This document shows, in pieces, positions 1 to 12,240 of a stretch of DNA of 41,217 nt. Source of the DNA: Ignavibacterium sp. (GTDB taxonomy: Bacteria; Bacteroidota; Ignavibacteria; Ignavibacteriales; Ignavibacteriaceae). The notes under the pieces are model-generated. The model saw only the letters and a list, made by a program, of their open reading frames with translations, was not told where the DNA came from and ran no database searches. Both the position numbers and the translations under genes were made by a program. The stretch lies in contig JANWVQ010000137.1 of NCBI GenBank assembly GCA_025056745.1, positions 1-41,217 of the forward strand, given 5' to 3'. The stretch's first letter is position 1; every line of letters begins with the position of its first letter.

Positions 1-801
1 TATTTCATACATTTTCTCAAGTCCACCAAGATTAAGCAACCATTTAGTAACCAATTTAATTATGTAAATTCCAAAAGTATTTGGAGTATTATAAAGTGAA
101 TCATTTTCAGCGTGAATTTTATAATTCAGCATTGTGTGTAATGAATCCTGGCTTCTTTCAATTAAATCTTTTCTGATAATTACAAGTGTGACACCCGAAG
201 GCCCCATATTTTTCTGTGCACCGGCATAAATTAAACCATACTTTCTTACATCAATTGGTTTACTAAGAATATCCGATGAAGCGTCGCAAACAAGAGGAAC
301 ATTTCCAACTTCCGGTTCTTTGTGCCATTCAACGCCTTCAATAGTTTCGTTAGATGTAAAATGAACATATGCCGCATCGGGATCTAGTTTAAGTTCCTCT
401 TGTCTTGGAACTCTTTTATATTTTTCAGATTCCATATTTGCAGCTATGTTAATAGTTCCAACCCTTTTAGCTTCTTTCAATGCTTTTTTACCCCAGCTAC
501 CGTGAATGATATAATCAGCTTTATTTTTAGGAGGCATCAAGTTGAGTGGAACCATTGAAAATTGTAATGAAGCTCCACCTTGTAGGAATAAGATTGCGTA
601 ATCATCTGGCACATTAAGAAGTTTTTTTATTCCTTCTTTCGCTTCTTGATGAATTGCATCATAAGTTTTTGATCGATGAGAAATCTCGAGAATTGACATT
701 CCCACTCCGGGGAGTGCAAATAAATCTTTTTGAGCTTCAAGTAACACTTCTTCCGGTAAAACTGCCGGACCAGCACTGAAGTTATAGATTCTGTTTTCCA
801 T
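1..801 (-). CDS. serC: Phosphoserine aminotransferase, 3' part outside the window
   Basis: This is the N-terminal 267 residues of SerC, the PLP enzyme that turns 3-phosphohydroxypyruvate and glutamate into 3-phosphoserine in cytoplasmic serine synthesis. The family is about 360 residues long, so roughly 90 C-terminal residues lie beyond base 1. The protein opens with the typical MENRIYNFSAGPA, has ISHRSK near 40-45 and FLQGGAS near 72-78, and carries the PLP-binding lysine (K197) in GAQKNMGPSG. The start ATG at 801-799 follows an AAGGAAAAA ribosome site. The gene lies 86 bases downstream of the DUF1015 gene on the same strand, a pairing that is common in Bacteroidota-like genomes. The assignment is secure. 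Confidence 0.95.
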   Translation of the reverse strand, partial: MENRIYNFSAGPAVLPEEVLLEAQKDLFALPGVGMSILEISHRSKTYDAIHQEAKEGIKKLLNVPDDYAILFLQGGASLQFSMVPLNLMPPKNKADYIIHGSWGKKALKEAKRVGTINIAANMESEKYKRVPRQEELKLDPDAAYVHFTSNETIEGVEWHKEPEVGNVPLVCDASSDILSKPIDVRKYGLIYAGAQKNMGPSGVTLVIIRKDLIERSQDSLHTMLNYKIHAENDSLYNTPNTFGIYIIKLVTKWLLNLGGLEKMYEI

Positions 802-857
802 AATTTTTTCCTTTTAAATTTATTTTCCTTAGTGAATCATATTGTTTTCTTGCCTTT

Positions 858-879
858 GTGGTTAAAAAGAATTAACCAC
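858..879 (-). repeat. Hairpin between the DUF1015 gene and serC
   Basis: An 8-base perfect inverted repeat (gtggttaa / ttaaccac) with a 6-base loop starts 9 bases after the DUF1015 stop codon. No T-run follows in the direction of transcription, so it is not a standard intrinsic terminator. It may protect or partly separate the two messages; that role is an inference. Confidence 0.4.
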
Positions 880-887
880 TCAAACAC

Positions 888-2135
888 TTAGATTAAATGA
901 GTTAATAATCCATCTCTTAATTTGGGTTCAAACCAAGTTGATTTTGGTGGCATTATTTCTCCTGCATCTGAAATGTTCATTAAATCATCAAGACTGACAG
1001 GATAAAGCGAGAATGCAACCGCTGCTTTTCCGCTATCGACAAGTTTTTCAAGTTCTTTCGTCCCACGAATTCCACCAATAAAATCTATTCTGTTACTTGT
1101 TCTCGGATCATCAATTCCCAAAACAGGATTTAATAGGAAGTTTTGAAGAATACTAACATCAAGTTTTTCACCAACTGATTTTTCAAGTGATAAACTTGCC
1201 AAGACAGAATCTCTCGCTTTAAGATTATACCACTGATGATCAAGATACATACAAAATTCTTTTTGATTTTTCGGTTCTTTCTGCTCAGTTAAGCTAACCT
1301 CGAATTTTTCACTAATTGCATTTAAGAAATCTTCTTTACTCAAACCGTTCAGATCAAAAACAACTCTATTATAAGGAAGTATTTGTAATTGCTCTGCAGG
1401 AAAAATAACTGCAATGAAATAATTGTATTCTTCATCACCCTTATGGTTAGGATTTGATTTCATTTTTTCTTCTCTTGCTCTACTCGCACTTTTAGCACGA
1501 TGATGTCCGTCAGCAATATATAGTTTATTTATTTTTTCAAATTCTGAAATTATTGTTTGATTGTATTCATCGGGTAATATCCAAATTGTATGTTGAATTC
1601 CATCAGGAGCAATAAAGTCATATTCAGGCTGAAGAGTTTGTATAGTATGATCAACTATTTCATTAATTGATTGAACTCCACGATAGGTAAGAAAAACAAC
1701 TCCTGTTTGTGCATTTGTTGTAATAATATGATTTGTTCTATCGTCCTCTTTTACCTTACGAGTTTTTTCGTGTTTGAGAATCACATCATTATCATAATCA
1801 TCAACTGAGAAAGTTGCAGCAATTCCAGTTTGAGCTCTTCCATTCATAATTAATCTATAAAGATAAAAATGTGGTTCCTCATCCAAGACGAGAGGAGCAT
1901 TATTAATCAGATTATCAAGATTTTCTTTTGCTTTTTGATAAACTTCGTTTGAATATACATCAATATTTTCAGGCAAATCGATCTCTGAGCGAGTAACGTG
2001 CAAAAAACTTAATGGATTATCTTTAGCTAATTCTTTTGCCTCTTCAACATTTATTACGTCATAAGGAACGCTTGCAACTAAATGAGCATTTTCTTTGGTT
2101 GGTCTGAGTGCTTTGAATGGTCTGATTACTGCCAT
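888..2135 (-). CDS. DUF1015 family protein, possible ParB/Srx-type serine kinase relative
   Basis: This 415-residue cytoplasmic protein belongs to the DUF1015 family (Pfam PF06245), whose biochemical role is not settled as far as I know. It starts MAVIRPFKAL, with PYDVI at 25-29, a charged block HEKTRKVKEDDRTNH at 122-136 and the family hallmark IADGHHRAKSASR at about 207-219. The DGHHR motif resembles the nucleotide-binding motif of ParB/sulfiredoxin-fold enzymes, including the archaeal free-serine kinase SerK. The gene sits directly upstream of serC on the same strand, which points to serine or phosphoserine metabolism. The start ATG follows GGAGAAATC. Family membership is firm; the kinase idea is an inference from motif and context. 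Confidence 0.85.
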   Translation of the reverse strand: MAVIRPFKALRPTKENAHLVASVPYDVINVEEAKELAKDNPLSFLHVTRSEIDLPENIDVYSNEVYQKAKENLDNLINNAPLVLDEEPHFYLYRLIMNGRAQTGIAATFSVDDYDNDVILKHEKTRKVKEDDRTNHIITTNAQTGVVFLTYRGVQSINEIVDHTIQTLQPEYDFIAPDGIQHTIWILPDEYNQTIISEFEKINKLYIADGHHRAKSASRAREEKMKSNPNHKGDEEYNYFIAVIFPAEQLQILPYNRVVFDLNGLSKEDFLNAISEKFEVSLTEQKEPKNQKEFCMYLDHQWYNLKARDSVLASLSLEKSVGEKLDVSILQNFLLNPVLGIDDPRTSNRIDFIGGIRGTKELEKLVDSGKAAVAFSLYPVSLDDLMNISDAGEIMPPKSTWFEPKLRDGLLTHLI

Positions 2136-2481
2136 GATTTCTCCAAATTTTTTATTTTATTAACTTCAAAAATCTCTAAAAAAAGACTAATAACAAATAA
2201 TAAAAGATTTTCATAGTAAGTAAAACCACATATTAAAAGCCTTTTTAATTATCAAAATATGATTTGACAGCTTTTTGTTTCAGAAGAACTATTTTATGAT
2301 AAAGCCTACAAAATAAATCAATGATAAAAAGTCTTGATATTTAATCAGGAGTCAAATTTTAGGTTTTGAAAGAAATTTTATATGAGAAAGCAGACTATGA
2401 ATGAAATTTATTGGCAGTAAATTATAAAAGGGAAGTTGCAACCTTTGTAAAAAATAGGTTGCAACTTCTCAAAGCTAAATT
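2136..2481. other. Intergenic stretch of 346 bases
   Basis: No coding region is supported here. The right end holds the hairpin at 2432-2468, the likely terminator of the GGGP-synthase operon. The left part should hold the promoter of the DUF1015-serC unit, but I find no convincing TAnnTTTG element on the minus strand. The rest is AT-rich sequence with no structure I can name. Confidence 0.5.
2425..2468 (-). terminator. Intrinsic terminator of the GGGP-synthase/gmhA operon
   Basis: A perfect 13-base inverted repeat (gaagttgcaacct at 2432-2444, aggttgcaacttc at 2456-2468) has an 11-base loop. Read on the minus strand it is followed by CCTTTTATAAT, a short T-run. It begins 13 bases after the stop of the small secreted protein, the last gene of the operon. 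Confidence 0.8.
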
Positions 2482-2847
2482 TTATTTGAGTGATTTACCA
2501 ATATCTTCAACTGACAACAGTCTAACTCCACCATTAGAGTATTGTTGACCTTTAATGAACACCTGCATACCAAGATATGGTTCTAATACACTATAAAGAT
2601 TTCTATTAACAGCACTTGGAATTAAAATTACGATTTTATTTGATTTACTTTCTAATAATGCAAAAGTGCCGCCTTTCATCAGGCCTTCTTTTGTAACTTC
2701 TAAACCTGCTGGGCTATTTGGTTTAATTTTATCAACAACAAAAGTTTTTAATTCAATTATTTCACCTGTCAAAGTAGCTGCTTTTTGGGCAAAAGAAGCA
2801 GAGTTCATTATGAACAATATGGATACGATTGATAATAATAATTTCAT
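2482..2847 (-). CDS. Small secreted protein of unknown function
   Basis: I do not recognise the family. The 121-residue product has a clear Sec signal peptide (MKLLLSIVSILFIMNSASFA, cleavage near AQ at 20-21), so it should be periplasmic or outside. The mature part of about 100 residues is rich in beta-forming stretches and glycines, compatible with a small beta-barrel fold such as an OB fold, but this is only an impression. No cysteines or catalytic motifs stand out. It is preceded by a strong AGGAGG ribosome site that overlaps the end of the FN3 lipoprotein gene 17 bases upstream, and it is the last gene before the terminator. It may work with that lipoprotein. Confidence 0.75.
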   Translation of the reverse strand: MKLLLSIVSILFIMNSASFAQKAATLTGEIIELKTFVVDKIKPNSPAGLEVTKEGLMKGGTFALLESKSNKIVILIPSAVNRNLYSVLEPYLGMQVFIKGQQYSNGGVRLLSVEDIGKSLK

Positions 2848-2864
2848 TTTAACTATCCTCCTGA

Positions 2865-3791
2865 CTATCTTGTTTTTGAAAATCTGTTATACGGAACTGA
2901 CTGATAAGAGATTCTAACCTGAATGTATTGTTCTGGCGAACTACCCCATATTAAAGTGCCATTAGCTGGATTTCTTTCCAAAAGAATTCGACCATAATTT
3001 CCATTGTTGCCTTTGAAATAAAGCACCTTAGAAGTTGAAACTGCTACAGAGTCAATTCTCCATTCTGTTTTTGTGTAAGTTGTTGTATCTGGTGGAGCAT
3101 TGCGAGGATCATTCAAAGTATTAACATCGTAAGAGACAGTTGAAAATCTTGTAATTTTTCTGCTTGGTCTAAATAAATGGGAACTTCTTAATTCAACATT
3201 ACTTGAATTAGGGACAGTGTATAGATAAACATCAATTAAAGAGCTATCAGCGCTGAGCAAGGAAACTGTCTTTGGTTGTTGAGTTGATGGATTGTAAAAA
3301 ATTAATCCACTTGCAAAACCTGTTGAACTTGAGCTCTCATAAATTTTTATTGGGATAGTACCTTCAAGATCAAATCTCCAAGCTGGGGACCATTGAATAG
3401 AAATGGTATCTGAGTTAATGTATTTAGTTGAATTTGACTGAGCCTTTGCAACTATTTGAAAATTATAAATTGTTCCTGCTGTTAAATTATCTGCTGCTAA
3501 GCTATCTAAGCCTTTGCTAACTGTTCGTTCTCTTACTACTGAACCAGTTGTTGTCAAGATTCTAACCAAATAACCGTCAAAGTCAGCGAGATTTTCATCT
3601 TGACTTCTTGTCCATTTAACAACTACTGTTGTATTATTCAATGAATAAGCCAATGGATTTGTGGGGGCCTTAATTTTAGACTTTGGTGTTGGCTGTGGAG
3701 AAACAGGATCTTCTTCTTTGCTACAACTCATCAAGACTAATAGTGAAAATGAAATAGTTAGTATTGAGAAAATCAACTTTAAATTTTTCAT
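2865..3791 (-). CDS. Lipoprotein with a fibronectin type III domain
   Basis: The protein has a lipoprotein signal with lipobox LMSC (MKNLKLIFSILTISFSLLVLMSC) and a charged, proline-rich linker. A fibronectin type III domain follows, with PTNPLAYSLN early in it and VVVKWTRS and YNFQIVAKAQ as typical strands. The remaining 190 or so residues are beta-rich and unassigned. I chose the ATG at 3791 because it follows AGAGG and begins the signal peptide exactly. A longer reading frame to 3848 would add 19 residues before the signal and overlap gmhA. The product is expected on a membrane surface, probably binding protein or glycan; its ligand is unknown. It lies 25 bases after gmhA in the same operon. 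Confidence 0.8.
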   Translation of the reverse strand: MKNLKLIFSILTISFSLLVLMSCSKEEDPVSPQPTPKSKIKAPTNPLAYSLNNTTVVVKWTRSQDENLADFDGYLVRILTTTGSVVRERTVSKGLDSLAADNLTAGTIYNFQIVAKAQSNSTKYINSDTISIQWSPAWRFDLEGTIPIKIYESSSSTGFASGLIFYNPSTQQPKTVSLLSADSSLIDVYLYTVPNSSNVELRSSHLFRPSRKITRFSTVSYDVNTLNDPRNAPPDTTTYTKTEWRIDSVAVSTSKVLYFKGNNGNYGRILLERNPANGTLIWGSSPEQYIQVRISYQSVPYNRFSKTR

Positions 3792-3816
3792 ATATACCTC
3801 TCTGTTTGTTATTAAT

Positions 3817-4404
3817 TTATGAAAAAAGAATATGCTCAACCGATTCACAAATAATATGTGCTATTGTAATATGACCTTCCTGAATTCTTTGTGTACTATT
3901 AGAAGGAATAATAATTGGTAAATCAACCATTTCTTTAAGTTTTCCTCCTGAACCACCGAGAAAACCAATAACCTTCATATCTTTTATTTTAGCCATCTCA
4001 ACTGCTTTAATTAAATTTGGTGAATTTCCACTTGTAGAAATTACTAAAAGTATATCGCCTTTTTTACCAAGTCCTTCTACATTTCTTGCAAAAACATTTT
4101 CAAAACCAATATCATTTCCACCTGCAGTTAAATTTGAAGAGTCTGTTGTTATCGCAAAAGCCGGTAGAGCTGGTCTCTGTAAATGATGACTTAATCGAAT
4201 AACAAATTCAGTTGCAATATGTTGCGAATCTGCTGCACTACCACCATTCCCACATATTAATAACTTATTTCCTTCTTTAAAGCATTCAACTATCATATCA
4301 ATTGCAGACTTAACATCATCATACAAATTCTCTTTCATCTTTAATTTCATTAAATAGCTTTCTTCCAAAGAACTCAAGAAAAACTCTTTGACATCAAAAG
4401 GCAT
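3817..4404 (-). CDS. gmhA: Sedoheptulose-7-phosphate isomerase (SIS domain)
   Basis: This 195-residue protein matches GmhA, which isomerises sedoheptulose 7-phosphate to D-glycero-D-manno-heptose 7-phosphate, the first step to ADP- or GDP-heptose for lipopolysaccharide core or S-layer glycans. The SIS motifs are plain: CGNGGSAADSQH at 51-62, STSGNSP at 123-129 and the C-terminal RIQEGHITIAH at 173-183, holding the catalytic-type Glu and His. Length is typical of the family. The start ATG overlaps the last base of the GGGP-synthase stop (TAATG), so translation is probably coupled. No other heptose gene is in the window. A general phosphosugar isomerase is the only serious alternative. Confidence 0.9.
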   Translation of the reverse strand: MPFDVKEFFLSSLEESYLMKLKMKENLYDDVKSAIDMIVECFKEGNKLLICGNGGSAADSQHIATEFVIRLSHHLQRPALPAFAITTDSSNLTAGGNDIGFENVFARNVEGLGKKGDILLVISTSGNSPNLIKAVEMAKIKDMKVIGFLGGSGGKLKEMVDLPIIIPSNSTQRIQEGHITIAHIICESVEHILFS

Positions 4405-5162
4405 TATACGATAACTCCTTTTCTAAAATGAATAGCCGATGAAAAATCTTTAATTAAATTCCAGTTATTTTCATTTTCGAAAAAATTTCCCATAATGATC
4501 ACAGATGCACCATTGCTGACTTTTTCAGATACATCATCAATAGTACGCAATCCTCCGCCAACAATAATAGGAATTGAGCAGGCTTTAGAAACTAGTTTCA
4601 CCATTTCACTTGGTACCGAATATTGAGCGCCACTTCCTGCCTCTAAATAGATTAGTTTCATACCCAAGTATTCAGCAGCTAAAGCGGTTGCAACAGCAAT
4701 TTCAGGTTTGTTTCTTGGAATTGGTAAACTGCCACTAATGTAAGTTGCAGTTGTATTAGTACCAGATTCAACAAGAATGTACCCTGTTGCAAGTGGCTCT
4801 ATGTTTGCTTTTTTTATCAATGGTGCAGCTAAAACTTGCTTTCCAATTAAATGCTCTGGGTTACGCCCACTAACAACAGATATAAATAAAATCGCATCCG
4901 CAAAACTTGAAACTTGAGTTATACTCCCAGGAAAAATTATAATTGGTTTTGTGCTATGAATTTTTACTTCTTTAATGAATAGTTCAAAATCCCCGCTCAT
5001 AATTAAACTTCCGCCAATTAAGAAACCATCCACTCCAGAACTTTCAGCATAAGTTACAAAATCTTTTATTCTGTTTATTTCAAGTTTATCAGGATCAAGA
5101 AGGATGAAAAAAGAAGAACCCTTTTCCTGAATAATTGATTTTATATAGTTATAAACTTTCAT
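4404..5162 (-). CDS. Geranylgeranylglyceryl-phosphate synthase family protein (PcrB/GGGPS)
   Basis: This 252-residue TIM-barrel prenyltransferase belongs to the GGGPS/PcrB family, which joins a polyprenyl diphosphate to sn-glycerol-1-phosphate, the first ether bond of archaeal-type lipids. Visible family motifs are LLDPDK at 21-26, the IGGS block at 49-52, FPGS at 77-80, YLEAGSGA at 172-179, VGGGLR at 201-206 and MGNFFE near 225-230. The phosphate-binding glycines and DPD are all present, so it should be active. Bacterial members occur in Bacteroidota relatives and in Bacillus (PcrB). Chain length cannot be decided from this reading. It is the first gene of a four-gene operon, 109 bases after gyrA, and overlaps gmhA by one base. 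Confidence 0.92.
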   Translation of the reverse strand: MKVYNYIKSIIQEKGSSFFILLDPDKLEINRIKDFVTYAESSGVDGFLIGGSLIMSGDFELFIKEVKIHSTKPIIIFPGSITQVSSFADAILFISVVSGRNPEHLIGKQVLAAPLIKKANIEPLATGYILVESGTNTTATYISGSLPIPRNKPEIAVATALAAEYLGMKLIYLEAGSGAQYSVPSEMVKLVSKACSIPIIVGGGLRTIDDVSEKVSNGASVIIMGNFFENENNWNLIKDFSSAIHFRKGVIV

Positions 5163-5271
5163 AAGAGATTGAATTTGCTCTGCGTGAATATAGATAATTC
5201 AGCATAAAGATGAAAGTTTATGTGACATTTCATACACGACTAAAATTTTAAGATTTAGTTAAATTATTTGT

Positions 5272-7719
5272 CTAATCACCATTTACATCATCATCTTCAG
5301 GGATGATTCTTGCTATATCAGCAATTGAATCGCCATCATTTAATTTAATAAGTCTTACACCTTGAGTGTTTCGACCCATTACTCTGAGCTCTTTAACAGC
5401 TTGTCTTATCACCATACCTTGAGTTGAAATTATAATCAATTCATCCTTGTCAACAACTTCCATCAATGCTATCATTTTTCCGACTTTATCAGTTGTTTTG
5501 ACAGTGATAACGCCTTTACCACCTCTTTTTGTAATTCTATAATCATTTATGTCGGAGCGTTTACCATAACCTTTTTCTGTAACTACTAAGACACTTGTCT
5601 GAGGATGTTTTATTACTAAGAGACCAACGACTTTATCTCCTTTTTGTAACTTGATTCCCCTTACACCAGTTGCCGTTCTTCCCATATCACGAACATCTTT
5701 TTCATTAAATCTTATTGCAAAGCCATTTCTCGTCCCTATAACTATATCATTATTTCCATCTGTCATTTTTACTTCAATGAGTCTGTCGCCTTCAACTAAG
5801 TTTATTGCATTTATACCCCCACGCCTTACATTTCCATAAGCTGAAAGCACTGTCTTTTTGACAGTTCCTTGTTCTGTAACCATAATCAAATATTGATTAT
5901 CGGTAAATTCTTTAACTGCTACAAATGCTGTAATTGACTCATCTTTTTCTTTTTCAATCAAGTTAATGATAGACCTTCCTCGAGCGGTTCTTCCACCTTC
6001 AGGAACTTCGTGAACTTTTAACCAGTAACATCTTCCTTTATCTGTAAAGAAGAGAATATATTGATGTGTTGAGGCAATAAACATATGTTCGATAAAATCA
6101 TCATCTTTTGTGCTTACTCCAGTAATTCCTTTTCCACCTCTTGATTGTCTTCGATAACCACTAACTGGAAATCTTTTAATAAATCCTTGATGAGATATGG
6201 TTACAACAACATCTTCTTCTGCAATAATATCTTCTAAAGAAAATTCTTTGTAATCATAAATTATCTCTGTTCTTCTTTCATCTGCATATTTTTCTTTGAG
6301 TTCTAATAATTCGTCTTTGATAATTTGTTTTCTTTTTTGTTCACTTTCTAAAATGCCTCTTAATCTTTCAATAAGTTTAATAGTTTCTTTGTATTCGTCT
6401 TCAATTTTCTTTCTTTCAAGTCCAGTGAGACGTTGTAAACGCATATCAAGAATTGCTTTTGCTTGAATCTCACTAAGCTTGAATTTTCTCATCAAATTAT
6501 TTTTTGCAGTTTCAACGTCTCTCGATTTTTTAATTGTTTCTATTACTTCATCAATGTTATCAAGAGCAATTATATATCCTTCAAGAATATGAGCTCTTTT
6601 TTCAGCGGCATCTAGTTCATACTTTGTTCTTCTGATTAGAACATCCATTCGATGATCGAGGAAGTGCTGCATCATCTCTTTGAGGTTAAGAACCTTCGGA
6701 ACACCATTTACTAAAGCAAGCATTATAACTCCGAAGGTAACCTGCATTTGAGTATGTTTGAAGAGTTGATTTAGCACTACTGCAGGTTGAGCATCTCTTT
6801 TAAGTTCAATTACTATTCGAAGTCCATCTCTATCTGATTCATCTCTAATGTTTGATATATCATCAAGTTTTCCTTCTCTTACAAGCTCTGCAATCTTCTC
6901 AATTAAATTTGATTTATTAACCTGATAAGGAATTTCTGTAATTACAATATTTTCTCTGTCATTTTTAAGGGTTTCAATATTTGCTTTTGCTCTAAGAATG
7001 ATTCTTCCTCGACCAGTAGTATAAGCCTCTTTAACACCTTCATAGCCATATATTATTCCACCAGTAGGAAAATCAGGAGCTTTAATGTATTTGATCAACT
7101 GCTCAGAATTTAGATTTGGATTATTTATCAGAGCGATGAGTCCATCAACTACCTCACCAAGATTATGTGGTGGAATATTTGTAGCCATTCCAACAGCAAT
7201 ACCACTCGAACCATTAACTAAAAGATTAGGTAAGTAAGATGGTAGAACTAATGGTTCTTGTAATGAATCATCGAAATTAGGACCGAAGTCAACAGTGTTT
7301 TTGTCAAGATCTCTTAATAGTTCTTCAGATATTTTTGCGAGACGAGCTTCTGTATATCTCATTGCTGCAGGAGAATCGCCATCAATCGAGCCAAAATTTC
7401 CTTGTCCATCAATCAAAGGATATCTTAAAGAGAAATCCTGAACCATTCTAACCATCGTGTCGTAAACTGCACTATCTCCGTGTGGATGATATTTACCTAA
7501 AACTTCTCCGACAATTCTTGCAGATTTTTTAAATGGTCTGTTATAAGCCAAACCTAATTCGTGCATTCCATATAGAACTCTTCTGTGAACTGGTTTAAGT
7601 CCATCTCTAACATCTGGCAATGCACGAGCTACAATAACACTCATTGCATAATCAATGTAAGAGGATTTCATTTCCTCTTCTAAAGTAACAGGTACTATTT
7701 TTTCAAACATTGTTGTCAT
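5272..7719 (-). CDS. gyrA: DNA gyrase subunit A
   Basis: The 815-residue product is the breakage-reunion subunit of gyrase, which introduces negative supercoils with GyrB. The catalytic tyrosine is Y122 in AMRYTEARL. The quinolone-contact region reads [10 protein letters not shown] with Ser83 and Asp87, the same numbering and residues as sensitive Escherichia coli. The C-terminal beta-pinwheel carries the GyrA box in the form QSRGGKG rather than QRRGGKG, which marks it as GyrA rather than ParC, with one substituted position. The tail is acidic (DDDVNGD). It follows gyrB by 36 bases and is the last gene of the dnaN cluster. A start at M4 is possible because no clear ribosome site separates them. 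Confidence 0.98.
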
Positions 7720-7755
7720 TTTCTTTTATTATTTATTTCTGATTAATTAATTGAA

Positions 7756-10036
<2,281 letters not shown>

Positions 10037-10039
10037 TTT

Positions 10040-11128
10040 TTAATTAAGATTAATTATTAAATCTGAATTTGACTTAGAAAGAAAGCTCATATTAGACAAA
10101 TCAGTTAAAGTTATAAAAGCCTGTCCTACTTTTTGAAGATATTCACTTACTTTTTTTGAACGAAAACTATCAAGCTCTCCGAAAACATCATCAAGCAGGA
10201 AAATTGGCGTTTCTTCGTTAAATTCTTTTAAGTAAAAAAACTCAGCGAACTTCAATGATATTTGAAAAGTTTTATTTTGACCTTGAGAACCAAACTTTTT
10301 AAGATTTATACCATTTATTTCAAATACAAAATCATCTCTATGCGGACCGAATAAATTTGTATTTCTTATAATTTCCTGATGTTGATTTTCATTTATTAAT
10401 TTCTTTAATACCGTTTTTTCATCGAAGACTTTCTCATTTGAAATGGTTTGATATCTAATTGATGGTATTTCTTTTTCGCCCATTATTTCGATGTAGGAAT
10501 TCAACAGATAGGAGTTAAAATCTTCCAAAAATTTTTTTCTGTATTTAATTATTTGCGAGCCTTTATCAACAAGATTTTCTGTCCAAGAATCCAATTCATC
10601 TAGAAGAGATGGAGTTTTTCTTTCTGATAATTGGGTCAAAATTACTGCACGATGTTTTAATATTTTGTTATAATCAATTAAATAATCAAGATACGTTTTA
10701 TTAGCTTGAGAGAATACAGAGTCGAAAAATTTTCTCCTGTCTGAAGGCGTTCCTAAAGTTATTTTATGATCATCAGGAGTAAGAGTAACAAAAGGGAACT
10801 TACCAATAATCTCACTTGATTTGTTAATTTGTTTTCCGTTCAAAATAAAATATTTCTTATTTTCCAAAATGCTAAAGTAAACTCTAACTTTATTTACATT
10901 TTTATTTCTAAACATTCCCTCCACAGTAAAATTATCAGCATTGAAACTAACCACTTCGCTATCCTTTGCAAATAAACTTTTAGTCGAACATAAGTAGTGA
11001 ATCGCTTCAAGAACGGAGGTTTTTCCAACACTGTTTTGACCGACTATATAATTTAATCCTTCAGAAAATTGAAAACTCGCATTGATGTGTTTTCTAAAAT
11101 TTGATACTGATAAAGAAGAAAGAAACAT
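10040..11128 (-). CDS. recF: DNA replication and repair protein RecF
   Basis: The 362-residue product is an SMC-like ABC ATPase that binds gapped DNA and helps RecO and RecR load RecA. The Walker A motif is GQNSVGKTS at 30-38, the N-terminal strand LSSLSVSNFRKH is typical, the signature-type region is FGSQGQNKTF, and Walker B plus D-loop is IFLLDDVFGELD near 308-319. Length is normal for the family. It starts 2 bases after the dnaN stop, with no separate ribosome site, so it probably depends on translational coupling. Confidence 0.96.
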   Translation of the reverse strand: MFLSSLSVSNFRKHINASFQFSEGLNYIVGQNSVGKTSVLEAIHYLCSTKSLFAKDSEVVSFNADNFTVEGMFRNKNVNKVRVYFSILENKKYFILNGKQINKSSEIIGKFPFVTLTPDDHKITLGTPSDRRKFFDSVFSQANKTYLDYLIDYNKILKHRAVILTQLSERKTPSLLDELDSWTENLVDKGSQIIKYRKKFLEDFNSYLLNSYIEIMGEKEIPSIRYQTISNEKVFDEKTVLKKLINENQHQEIIRNTNLFGPHRDDFVFEINGINLKKFGSQGQNKTFQISLKFAEFFYLKEFNEETPIFLLDDVFGELDSFRSKKVSEYLQKVGQAFITLTDLSNMSFLSKSNSDLIINLN

Positions 11129-11130
11129 TT

Positions 11131-12240
11131 TTAATTATTTAATCGCACCGGCATTAACAACATCAAAATCTCTTCATTTTCCGAAGTTTGTCCTGGTTCA
11201 ATTAAACAGGCTTTAGTTGGAGAATGAAGTTTGAAAATTAATTTTTCAGAGTCTATGTGAGTAACAATATCATTTAAGTAGAACACATTAAAACCTATAA
11301 CCATTGGCTCACCATTATATTCACAATCAATTGTCTCTGTTGCACTTGCTGATGTATCAACATTCTCTATTGAGATACTTAAATCAGTTGAGTTAATATT
11401 TAATTTTATTTGTTTATTTCCCTCCGTTGCAAAGACCATCATCCTTCTAATTGTAGATAATAAATCAGCACGATTGATTGTCAATAAATTTTCATTTTCC
11501 AGTGGAATTACACTATTGTAATTAGGATATTTATCACTTATCAGCTTAGTGACTAATTCAATATCAGAGAATTTAAATGAAGCAAGATTTTTTGTGAGAT
11601 TAATCTTGACCTCACTATCAGTTAAAAACTTTGAAATAATATGTATCGCTTTTCTCGGTATGATATATCTTTCAAGAAGTTCAGTTTGATATGATTTTTT
11701 TAAGTATTTAACTAATCTGTGTCCATCAGTTGCGACAAATCTCAATCCATCTTCAGCAAAGTCAAGTAAAATACCTGTCATTGCTGGTCTAATGTCTTCA
11801 TCACTTGCAGCAAAAGAGGTAATGTTAAAAGCTCTGTTAAGATCATCGGCAGATATGATTATTTCATTTCCACTTTCTATAACTGGAATTTCAGGATAAT
11901 CTTTGGTTTCGAAATAATTCAGATTATAAGTTCCTCGATCAGTTTTTAATTTTAATTGTTGATTATTCTCAAGAGAAATAGTAACGATAGTGTCAGGAAA
12001 TTCTCTGATTGTATCAAATAATAATTTAGCAGGGACAACAAATTGTTTATTTTTATCAGAAGCAATGTCCATTTGAGATTTAATGGAAACTTCCAAATCA
12101 GTAGCATAGACAGTTAAAAGTCCATCGTTTATATCAAATAAAAAATTAGTCAAAATAGTCATCGGCGTCTTTGACGGAATAGCTGGAATTACTTTAGACA
12201 AAAGTTTTTCAAGGTTTCTGCTGTTTACCCTAAATTCCAT
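11131..12240 (-). CDS. dnaN: DNA polymerase III sliding clamp (beta subunit)
   Basis: The 369-residue product is the beta clamp that tethers polymerase III to DNA as a ring-shaped dimer. The three clamp domains can be followed: N-terminal FRVNSRNLEKLL and TPMTILTNFLF, central DIRPAMTGILLDF with ATDGHRL, and the C-terminal end EEILMLLMPVRLNN, the usual M-P-[VM]-R tail. A good AAGGAGA ribosome site lies 8 bases before the ATG, and a promoter candidate is at 12264-12294. It is the first gene of the replication cluster. dnaA, its usual upstream neighbour, is absent. Confidence 0.97.
   Translation of the reverse strand: MEFRVNSRNLEKLLSKVIPAIPSKTPMTILTNFLFDINDGLLTVYATDLEVSIKSQMDIASDKNKQFVVPAKLLFDTIREFPDTIVTISLENNQQLKLKTDRGTYNLNYFETKDYPEIPVIESGNEIIISADDLNRAFNITSFAASDEDIRPAMTGILLDFAEDGLRFVATDGHRLVKYLKKSYQTELLERYIIPRKAIHIISKFLTDSEVKINLTKNLASFKFSDIELVTKLISDKYPNYNSVIPLENENLLTINRADLLSTIRRMMVFATEGNKQIKLNINSTDLSISIENVDTSASATETIDCEYNGEPMVIGFNVFYLNDIVTHIDSEKLIFKLHSPTKACLIEPGQTSENEEILMLLMPVRLNN

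Follow-up and report, generated by a model that had tools for sequence, protein, structure and literature searches.

The window described here, a stretch of 41,217 nucleotides that makes up the whole of contig C34 of an Ignavibacterium genome, carries a gene for a protein of the DUF1015 family (PF06245), which we take to be the same family as COG4198. The gene occupies positions 888..2135 of the minus strand and encodes 415 amino acids. The match of its product to PF06245 (E=1.2e-108, 363.4 bits against a cut-off of 25.8, profile positions 1-325 of 325), an alignment of its relatives, an AlphaFold model and the comparison of this model with known structures suggest that the protein is a phosphotransferase acting on phosphoserine or serine, with a fold like that of the serine kinase SerK. 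It probably converts O-phosphoserine into L-serine in bacteria that lack a canonical SerB but possess SerA and a SerC.

The DUF1015 gene precedes serC (1..801, minus strand), with 86 bp between the two. The serC product, a 3-phosphoserine/phosphohydroxythreonine transaminase, scores 380 bits with NF003764 (cut-off 253), although the gene is cut by the contig end and only 267 codons are present. A preliminary description of this DNA had drawn attention to the pairing with serC and to the lack of a phosphoserine phosphatase gene nearby. Both points hold: no serB-like gene is found among the nine window proteins of positions 1-12240 scanned with Pfam, nor one over the cut-off in the genome as a whole. 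The Rfam scan finds no T-box or other element in the window. In the DUF1015 protein itself, DUF1015 is the only Pfam match over the cut-off, with no HAD, histidine-phosphatase or helix-turn-helix domain, and the NCBIfam scan returns 0 families.

The protein contains the sequence DGHHR at residues 209-213 (1497..1511, minus strand). The preliminary description had placed the motif there and likened it to that of SerK; it does start at residue 209, in what proves to be a full-length DUF1015 protein, and it is identical to SerK residues D69-R73. Relatives were taken from named genomes as the best 80 of at least 594 matches, and are hence biased to close kin. Fifty-four of them, 48-67% identical to the window protein, form together with it the alignment A1 of 55 rows. 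D209-G210-H211-H212-R213 are invariant in all 55 rows, which rules out a chance motif. H122, E123, T125, D132, R133, R257 and D326 are likewise invariant, as is the C-terminal sequence MPPKSTWFEPK (residues 395-405; 921..953, minus strand), the hallmark of the subfamily linked to serC and serA. H122-E123 (1767..1772, minus strand) belong to a K-H-E-x-T motif, and the N-terminal extension (residues 1 to ~88) holds an invariant PYDV. In a wider alignment of 110 rows, DGHHR and HExT are complete in all 90 high-scoring (close) rows; of the 20 low-scoring (distant) rows, 16 have a complete DGHHR and 16 a complete HE pair.

Predicted fold and its relationship to serine kinases

The AlphaFold model computed from the 55-row alignment has a pLDDT of 95.9 and a pTM of 0.92. 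A Foldseek search of the PDB gives nine matches at E≤0.001: five entries of Thermococcus kodakarensis SerK (TK0378; 5x0b, 5x0e, 5x0g, 5x0j and 5x0k; E 3.6e-7 to 3.2e-6), the SerK homologue 1vk1 from P. furiosus, and three entries of SbnI (5uje, 5ujd and 6nr6). The next match has E 5e-3 and a probability of 0.14. No DUF1015 chain is among the PDB results, and enzymes other than SerK, SbnI and ParB may have been passed over by Foldseek. In VIA-align, the full model is superimposed on SerK with Z scores of 11.6-13.2 over 210-223 residues (rmsd 5.1-6.1). The best of these superpositions (Z 13.2, 221 aligned residues) spans SerK residues 8-238 and is loose, with an rmsd of ~5 Å. The Z score is 12.0 for 1vk1, 10.7-11.7 for SbnI and 5.2 for ParB (7bm8). 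A second model, of residues 85-415 alone (331 residues, pLDDT 94.7), has the same nine entries at the head of its Foldseek results, and its Z scores are 12.2-14.2 for SerK, 11.7-12.7 for SbnI and 5.8 for Noc and ParB. The resemblance to SerK and SbnI expected in the preliminary description is thus borne out, as these proteins and 1vk1 are the sole matches at the Foldseek threshold and lie far ahead in VIA-align. The models suggest that the DUF1015 protein is closer to the free serine kinases than to ParB; this kinship appears to be distant, given the large rmsd and an identity of ~12%.

SerK and the DUF1015 protein share a fold over ~220 residues (Z ~13), the DGHHR motif and a preceding His-Glu pair, and in some archaea serK has serA-like and aminotransferase neighbours. 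The two differ in length (~240 against 415 residues, with an N-terminal extension of ~88 residues in DUF1015), and the operon control of DUF1015 in some clostridia fits serine synthesis, not serine use. In the SerK sequence from the PDB, KPHEQL at 27-32 is followed by VDGHHRW at 68-74. The order is the same in DUF1015, where LKHEKT (H122-E123) precedes DGHHR with a spacing of 86 residues, compared with 39 in SerK. H122-E123 may therefore be the counterpart of SerK H29-E30, an equivalence based on motif and order rather than on a residue-level structural alignment. E30 is reportedly the catalytic base of SerK. According to PDB titles, it is the residue that was changed in the E30A and E30Q structures.

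SbnI, which belongs to staphyloferrin B synthesis in staphylococci and works in a siderophore pathway according to a title in the reference list of PMC12704722, has the fold and the preceding His-Glu pair in common with DUF1015. It has DGVHR (5uje) instead of DGHHR, and the identity is 11-14%. The ParB-CTPase fold proteins share the core fold and a GxxR-type P motif (GHHR) with DUF1015; their structural match is far weaker than that of SerK, and by Pfam DUF1015 has no helix-turn-helix. 'DU1015' fusions are among the 50 ParB-fold proteins selected in a 2025 screen, and the excerpted text of that paper does not mention DUF1015 as one of the NTP binders (PMC12704722). DGHHR also occurs in ParB-type toxin domains, as an excerpt of PMC3482391 states. 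A role as a nuclease or toxin of the ParB type was rejected, as no toxin context is seen, and plain chromosome partitioning was rejected as well.

Gene neighbourhood and serine T-box control

Linkage was scored in the 80 related loci as the presence of a partner gene within 2.5 kb on the same strand. Such a gene is present in 44 loci: 30 have canonical serC, 11 a SerC3-type class-V aminotransferase and 23 serA. The combinations are serC only (20 loci), serC with serA (10), SerC3-type with serA (10), serA only (3) and SerC3-type only (1). The usual orders are DUF1015-serC in Ignavibacteriota, serC-DUF1015 in Chitinophagaceae and aminotransferase-serA-DUF1015 in Clostridia. In the tree, linked rows are spread over several phyla, and on well-supported branches the linkage label must have been gained or lost at least ten times. 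As some of the unlinked rows are only truncated contigs, this figure does not strictly count origins. The labels were set by hand, and L027, with serC adjoining, is labelled 'other'.

The regulation of the clostridial operons bears on the direction of the reaction. Rfam places T-box leaders 5' of aminotransferase-serA-DUF1015 in four of the 11 clostridial loci scanned (L021, L031, L046 and L069). There are five leaders, because L021, from Clostridium luticellarii, has two in tandem (3415-3875). The specifier triplet is UCC (Ser) in all five, as placed from the Rfam alignment in L021 and from the flanking sequence in the others. Predictions for C. acetobutylicum and C. tetani, excerpted from PMC8002221, also give Ser (UCC). 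T-boxes activate their genes in response to an uncharged cognate tRNA (same source). An aminotransferase-serA-DUF1015 operon that is switched on when tRNA-Ser is uncharged serves the making of serine.

No T-box is found at E≤0.001 in L018, L026, L035, L041 and L043, nor at the gathering score in L126-L128, and the T-box of L129 is on the strand opposite to its DUF1015. Several clostridial loci (e.g. L040, L051, L073 and L078) lay outside the Rfam scan. A glycine riboswitch has been described 5' of COG4198, then without assigned function, in metagenome fragments presumably from Firmicutes (excerpt of PMC2211319); none is found at the gathering score in the 11 plus 20 clostridial loci. For Clostridium, the part of PMC9026213 drawn on here describes an operon of serA with a SerC3 type, a predicted phosphoserine aminotransferase; from their context the clostridial partner aminotransferases appear to be of this type.

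Absence of serB and the subfamilies of DUF1015

The genome to which the window belongs (G000) is 99.83% complete. Its best match to TIGR00338, at 34.9 bits against a cut-off of 144, is a HAD-IB protein on contig C142 that passes as MtnX-like (88.9 against a cut-off of 81.55). The other HAD proteins are PpaX-like or Cof-like, except for one that matches no NCBIfam model. Of the three PF00300 proteins, two are SixA-like and the third is a phosphoglycerate mutase, which reaches 57.9 of the 350 bits set for PspA. A normal serB, which would have spoken against the idea put forward in the preliminary description, is not found by this genome-wide search. The SerA-like candidates (C41 and C111) are below the TIGR01327 cut-off. 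No serB over the cut-off is found in the genomes of 50 of the 80 related loci, or in 147 Clostridia. Among the latter, 119 have DUF1015 and 84 canonical SerC (both 77, DUF1015 only 42, SerC only 7, neither 21; Fisher p=2e-4, uncorrected for kinship). The 42 with DUF1015 only include genomes of the SerC3 type that are unseen by NF003764, such as G131, the genome of L021.

Of 118 genomes from the phylum of the window, 105 have DUF1015 and 38 canonical serB. Exclusion of serB by the whole family was rejected, as 36 of the 118 genomes have both. The picture changes when the genomes are sorted by the score of their DUF1015 protein with the A1 profile. There is no serB in the 49 genomes with scores of 420 bits or more; serB is present in 3 of 12 at 287-378 bits, in 33 of 44 at 206 bits or less, and in 2 of the 13 that have no DUF1015. 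Counted by genome, serB is found in 0/49 of those with the serine-linked subfamily and in 38/69 of the others (p=6e-12), the 420-bit line having been drawn after the scores were seen. At a lax E≤1e-12, two of the 49 (G074 and G091) show weak SerB-like matches.

Twenty DUF1015 regions of this phylum were compared, ten from serB-bearing genomes and ten from genomes without serB over the cut-off. Among the latter, serC is present in eight regions, three of which also have serA. None of the regions from serB-bearing genomes has serC or serA adjoining, and all lack PPKSTWFEPK; their C-terminal motif is MPQKST..YPK in eight and MPPKST.IEPK in two. The serine-linked subfamily thus goes with a lack of serB; the distant one probably has another function.

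The distant genes sit in other contexts (L121, L123, L131, L094 and L118). In L121 (3199-6736), a distant clostridial DUF1015 is followed by homoserine dehydrogenase and GHMP kinase genes, the next frame starting right after the stop codon. L123 (462-3978) is near-identical, with neighbours of the same length. Both keep DGHHR and have HSET instead of HExT. In L131 (2955-5702), aspartate kinase comes right after the stop codon of a distant clostridial DUF1015. The wider family may act on other hydroxy-amino-acid phosphates, e.g. phosphohomoserine. A variant in a serB-bearing genome adjoins scpA (L094, 3258-5302), with similar open reading frames (ORFs) in three more loci; another variant, clostridial, precedes the diadenylate cyclase gene cdaA and a ybbR gene (L118, 2921-6043). 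L118 and L119 have DGHIR. Two clostridial ORFs with weak matches to the family (~20 bits; L117, 2858-4087, and L133, 3083-4369) have DGNHS for DGHHR and no HE pair, and are possibly a branch with another chemistry. In ten of 20 clostridial regions no ORF reaches 1e-3 with the A1 profile; these regions were not assigned to a class.

Proposed reaction, alternatives and significance

By combining the computed evidence, namely the fold kinship, the invariant residues, the linkage to serC and serA, the absence of canonical serB and the Ser T-box of some clostridia, we infer the substrate, the direction of the reaction and the role of each residue. By analogy with SerK, phosphoserine would bind with its phosphate on the DGHHR loop, and E123 would be the acid/base that protonates the leaving serine oxygen. 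The N-terminal extension with PYDV and the C-terminal MPPKSTWFEPK would complete the site. The phosphate would then pass to an acceptor, for which water, Pi, ADP and AMP are candidates. Hydrolysis is the simplest fate. Passing it on to Pi would be workable at low pyrophosphate levels; by textbook energies, ADP would be an uphill acceptor. A nucleotide acceptor can still be considered, because SerK uses ADP as its donor (excerpt of PMC5120207). The net role proposed for DUF1015, phosphoserine to serine after SerA and SerC, is that of SerB (HAD), the histidine phosphatase PspA and YsaA. DUF1015 has neither of the two phosphatase domains, and canonical SerB is absent from the sampled genomes with the serine-linked subfamily.

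Several observations weigh against this assignment. SerK and SbnI are both described as working in the opposite direction, as kinases with serine as their substrate. Sequence-only searches of the PDB (phmmer with the protein, hmmsearch with the 55 rows) give no SerK, only noise. The hhalign alignment to SerK covers only 23 columns around DGHHR, at 77% probability, and leaves the H122-E123 half unaligned to SerK H29-E30; the kinship to SerK thus rests on the fold. There is no partner gene in 36 of the 80 related loci, of which 9 are within 1.2 kb of a contig end. None of the four T-box operons has a canonical SerC as its aminotransferase (the scores stay below every NCBIfam cut-off and are highest with BhcA/PhnW-like models), and the best model for the L021 serA is TIGR01327, at 333 bits against a cut-off of 454. 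Seven of the 84 Clostridia with canonical SerC are without DUF1015. Counted by taxonomic family, the exclusion of serB is 0/13 against 5/18 (p=0.058). All ten regions from serB-bearing genomes carry a more distant DUF1015, so that substitution for SerB is not a property of the entire Pfam family. Weaker HAD matches occur in 19 of the 50 genomes of related loci (E≤1e-8, best 103.5 bits) and in 14 of the 147 Clostridia (E≤1e-15, best 93.8 bits). Seven of 14 control genomes also have no TIGR00338 match over the cut-off, because other SerB types exist. The MtnX-like HAD phosphatase of the window genome could serve as phosphoserine phosphatase.

The first of the alternatives is that the protein is a true serine kinase, producing phosphoserine that goes to 3-phosphoglycerate through reversed SerC and SerA, or to cysteine. 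All close relatives of known structure are serine kinases, and in Desulfurococcales serK lies beside genes for 3-phosphoglycerate dehydrogenase and an aminotransferase, an arrangement read as serine assimilation (excerpt of PMC5120207). A kinase of this kind is unlikely here. The Ser T-box raises expression when serine is short, where a serine-consuming kinase would be perverse, and without canonical serB the sampled subfamily genomes would need another enzyme to turn phosphoserine into serine. Ser T-box and absent serB together argue for the direction from phosphoserine to serine. The preliminary description had proposed either a serine kinase or a phosphoserine-using enzyme. The SerK-like, phosphoserine-using part is supported by structure, context, regulation and the absence of serB, and the kinase direction is disfavoured by the last two.

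The next alternative, unlikely as well, is that another phosphatase makes the serine, either the MtnX-like HAD protein of C142 or a YsaA-like one, while DUF1015 senses phosphoserine or acts as a regulator. The C142 protein does have weak similarity to SerB, B. subtilis YsaA has phosphoserine phosphatase activity (excerpt of PMC8002221), and the PDB names SbnI a bifunctional transcriptional regulator/phosphoserine synthase. A merely regulatory protein fits poorly with the retention of DGHHR and HExT in every close relative, with the absence of a DNA-binding domain by Pfam and with an operon shared with aminotransferase and serA genes. That the substrate is a related hydroxy-amino-acid phosphate, such as the 4-phosphohydroxythreonine of vitamin B6 synthesis, is very improbable: the name of the SerC family includes phosphohydroxythreonine, and distant DUF1015 genes directly precede those for homoserine dehydrogenase and GHMP kinase or aspartate kinase, yet the linkage is to serA as well as to serC and the T-box specifier is Ser.

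Two features lie farther along the window and touch on other subjects. A PcrB-family gene (4404-5162, E=7.5e-41) overlaps a SIS-domain gene (3817-4404) by one base. At 5272-12240 (minus strand), a gyrA-like ORF (identified by eye), gyrB, a gene for a RecF/SMC-type ATPase and dnaN are consecutive, an arrangement that appears typical of a replication-origin region.

The gap left by SerB is already in print. Of 2856 gut genomes, 450 have SerA and SerC and none of four SerB types (excerpt of PMC9026213), and GapMind finds only low-confidence SerB candidates in C. perfringens, which grows without serine (excerpt of PMC7311316). Complementation of an E. coli serB deletion was used earlier for another gap (excerpt of PMC5764234). 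No functional assignment for DUF1015/COG4198 is found in the open-licence full texts searched, most of the subscription literature lying outside these.

A further idea, tentative and rather doubtful, is that in a large share of anaerobic and Bacteroidota-like bacteria serine synthesis ends, instead of with hydrolysis of phosphoserine, with a reversible, phosphate-saving transfer to Pi, which yields pyrophosphate, or to AMP or ADP, carried out by a ParB-fold enzyme. A single operon could then serve either serine synthesis or the return of serine to glycolysis. If the conversion of phosphoserine into serine proposed here is correct, one unannotated family, present in 119 of the 147 sampled Clostridia and 105 of the 118 genomes of the phylum of the window, though not always as the serine-linked subfamily, would account for the serine prototrophy of many bacteria of the gut and the environment, and would give the ParB/Srx fold a role in mainstream bacterial metabolism.

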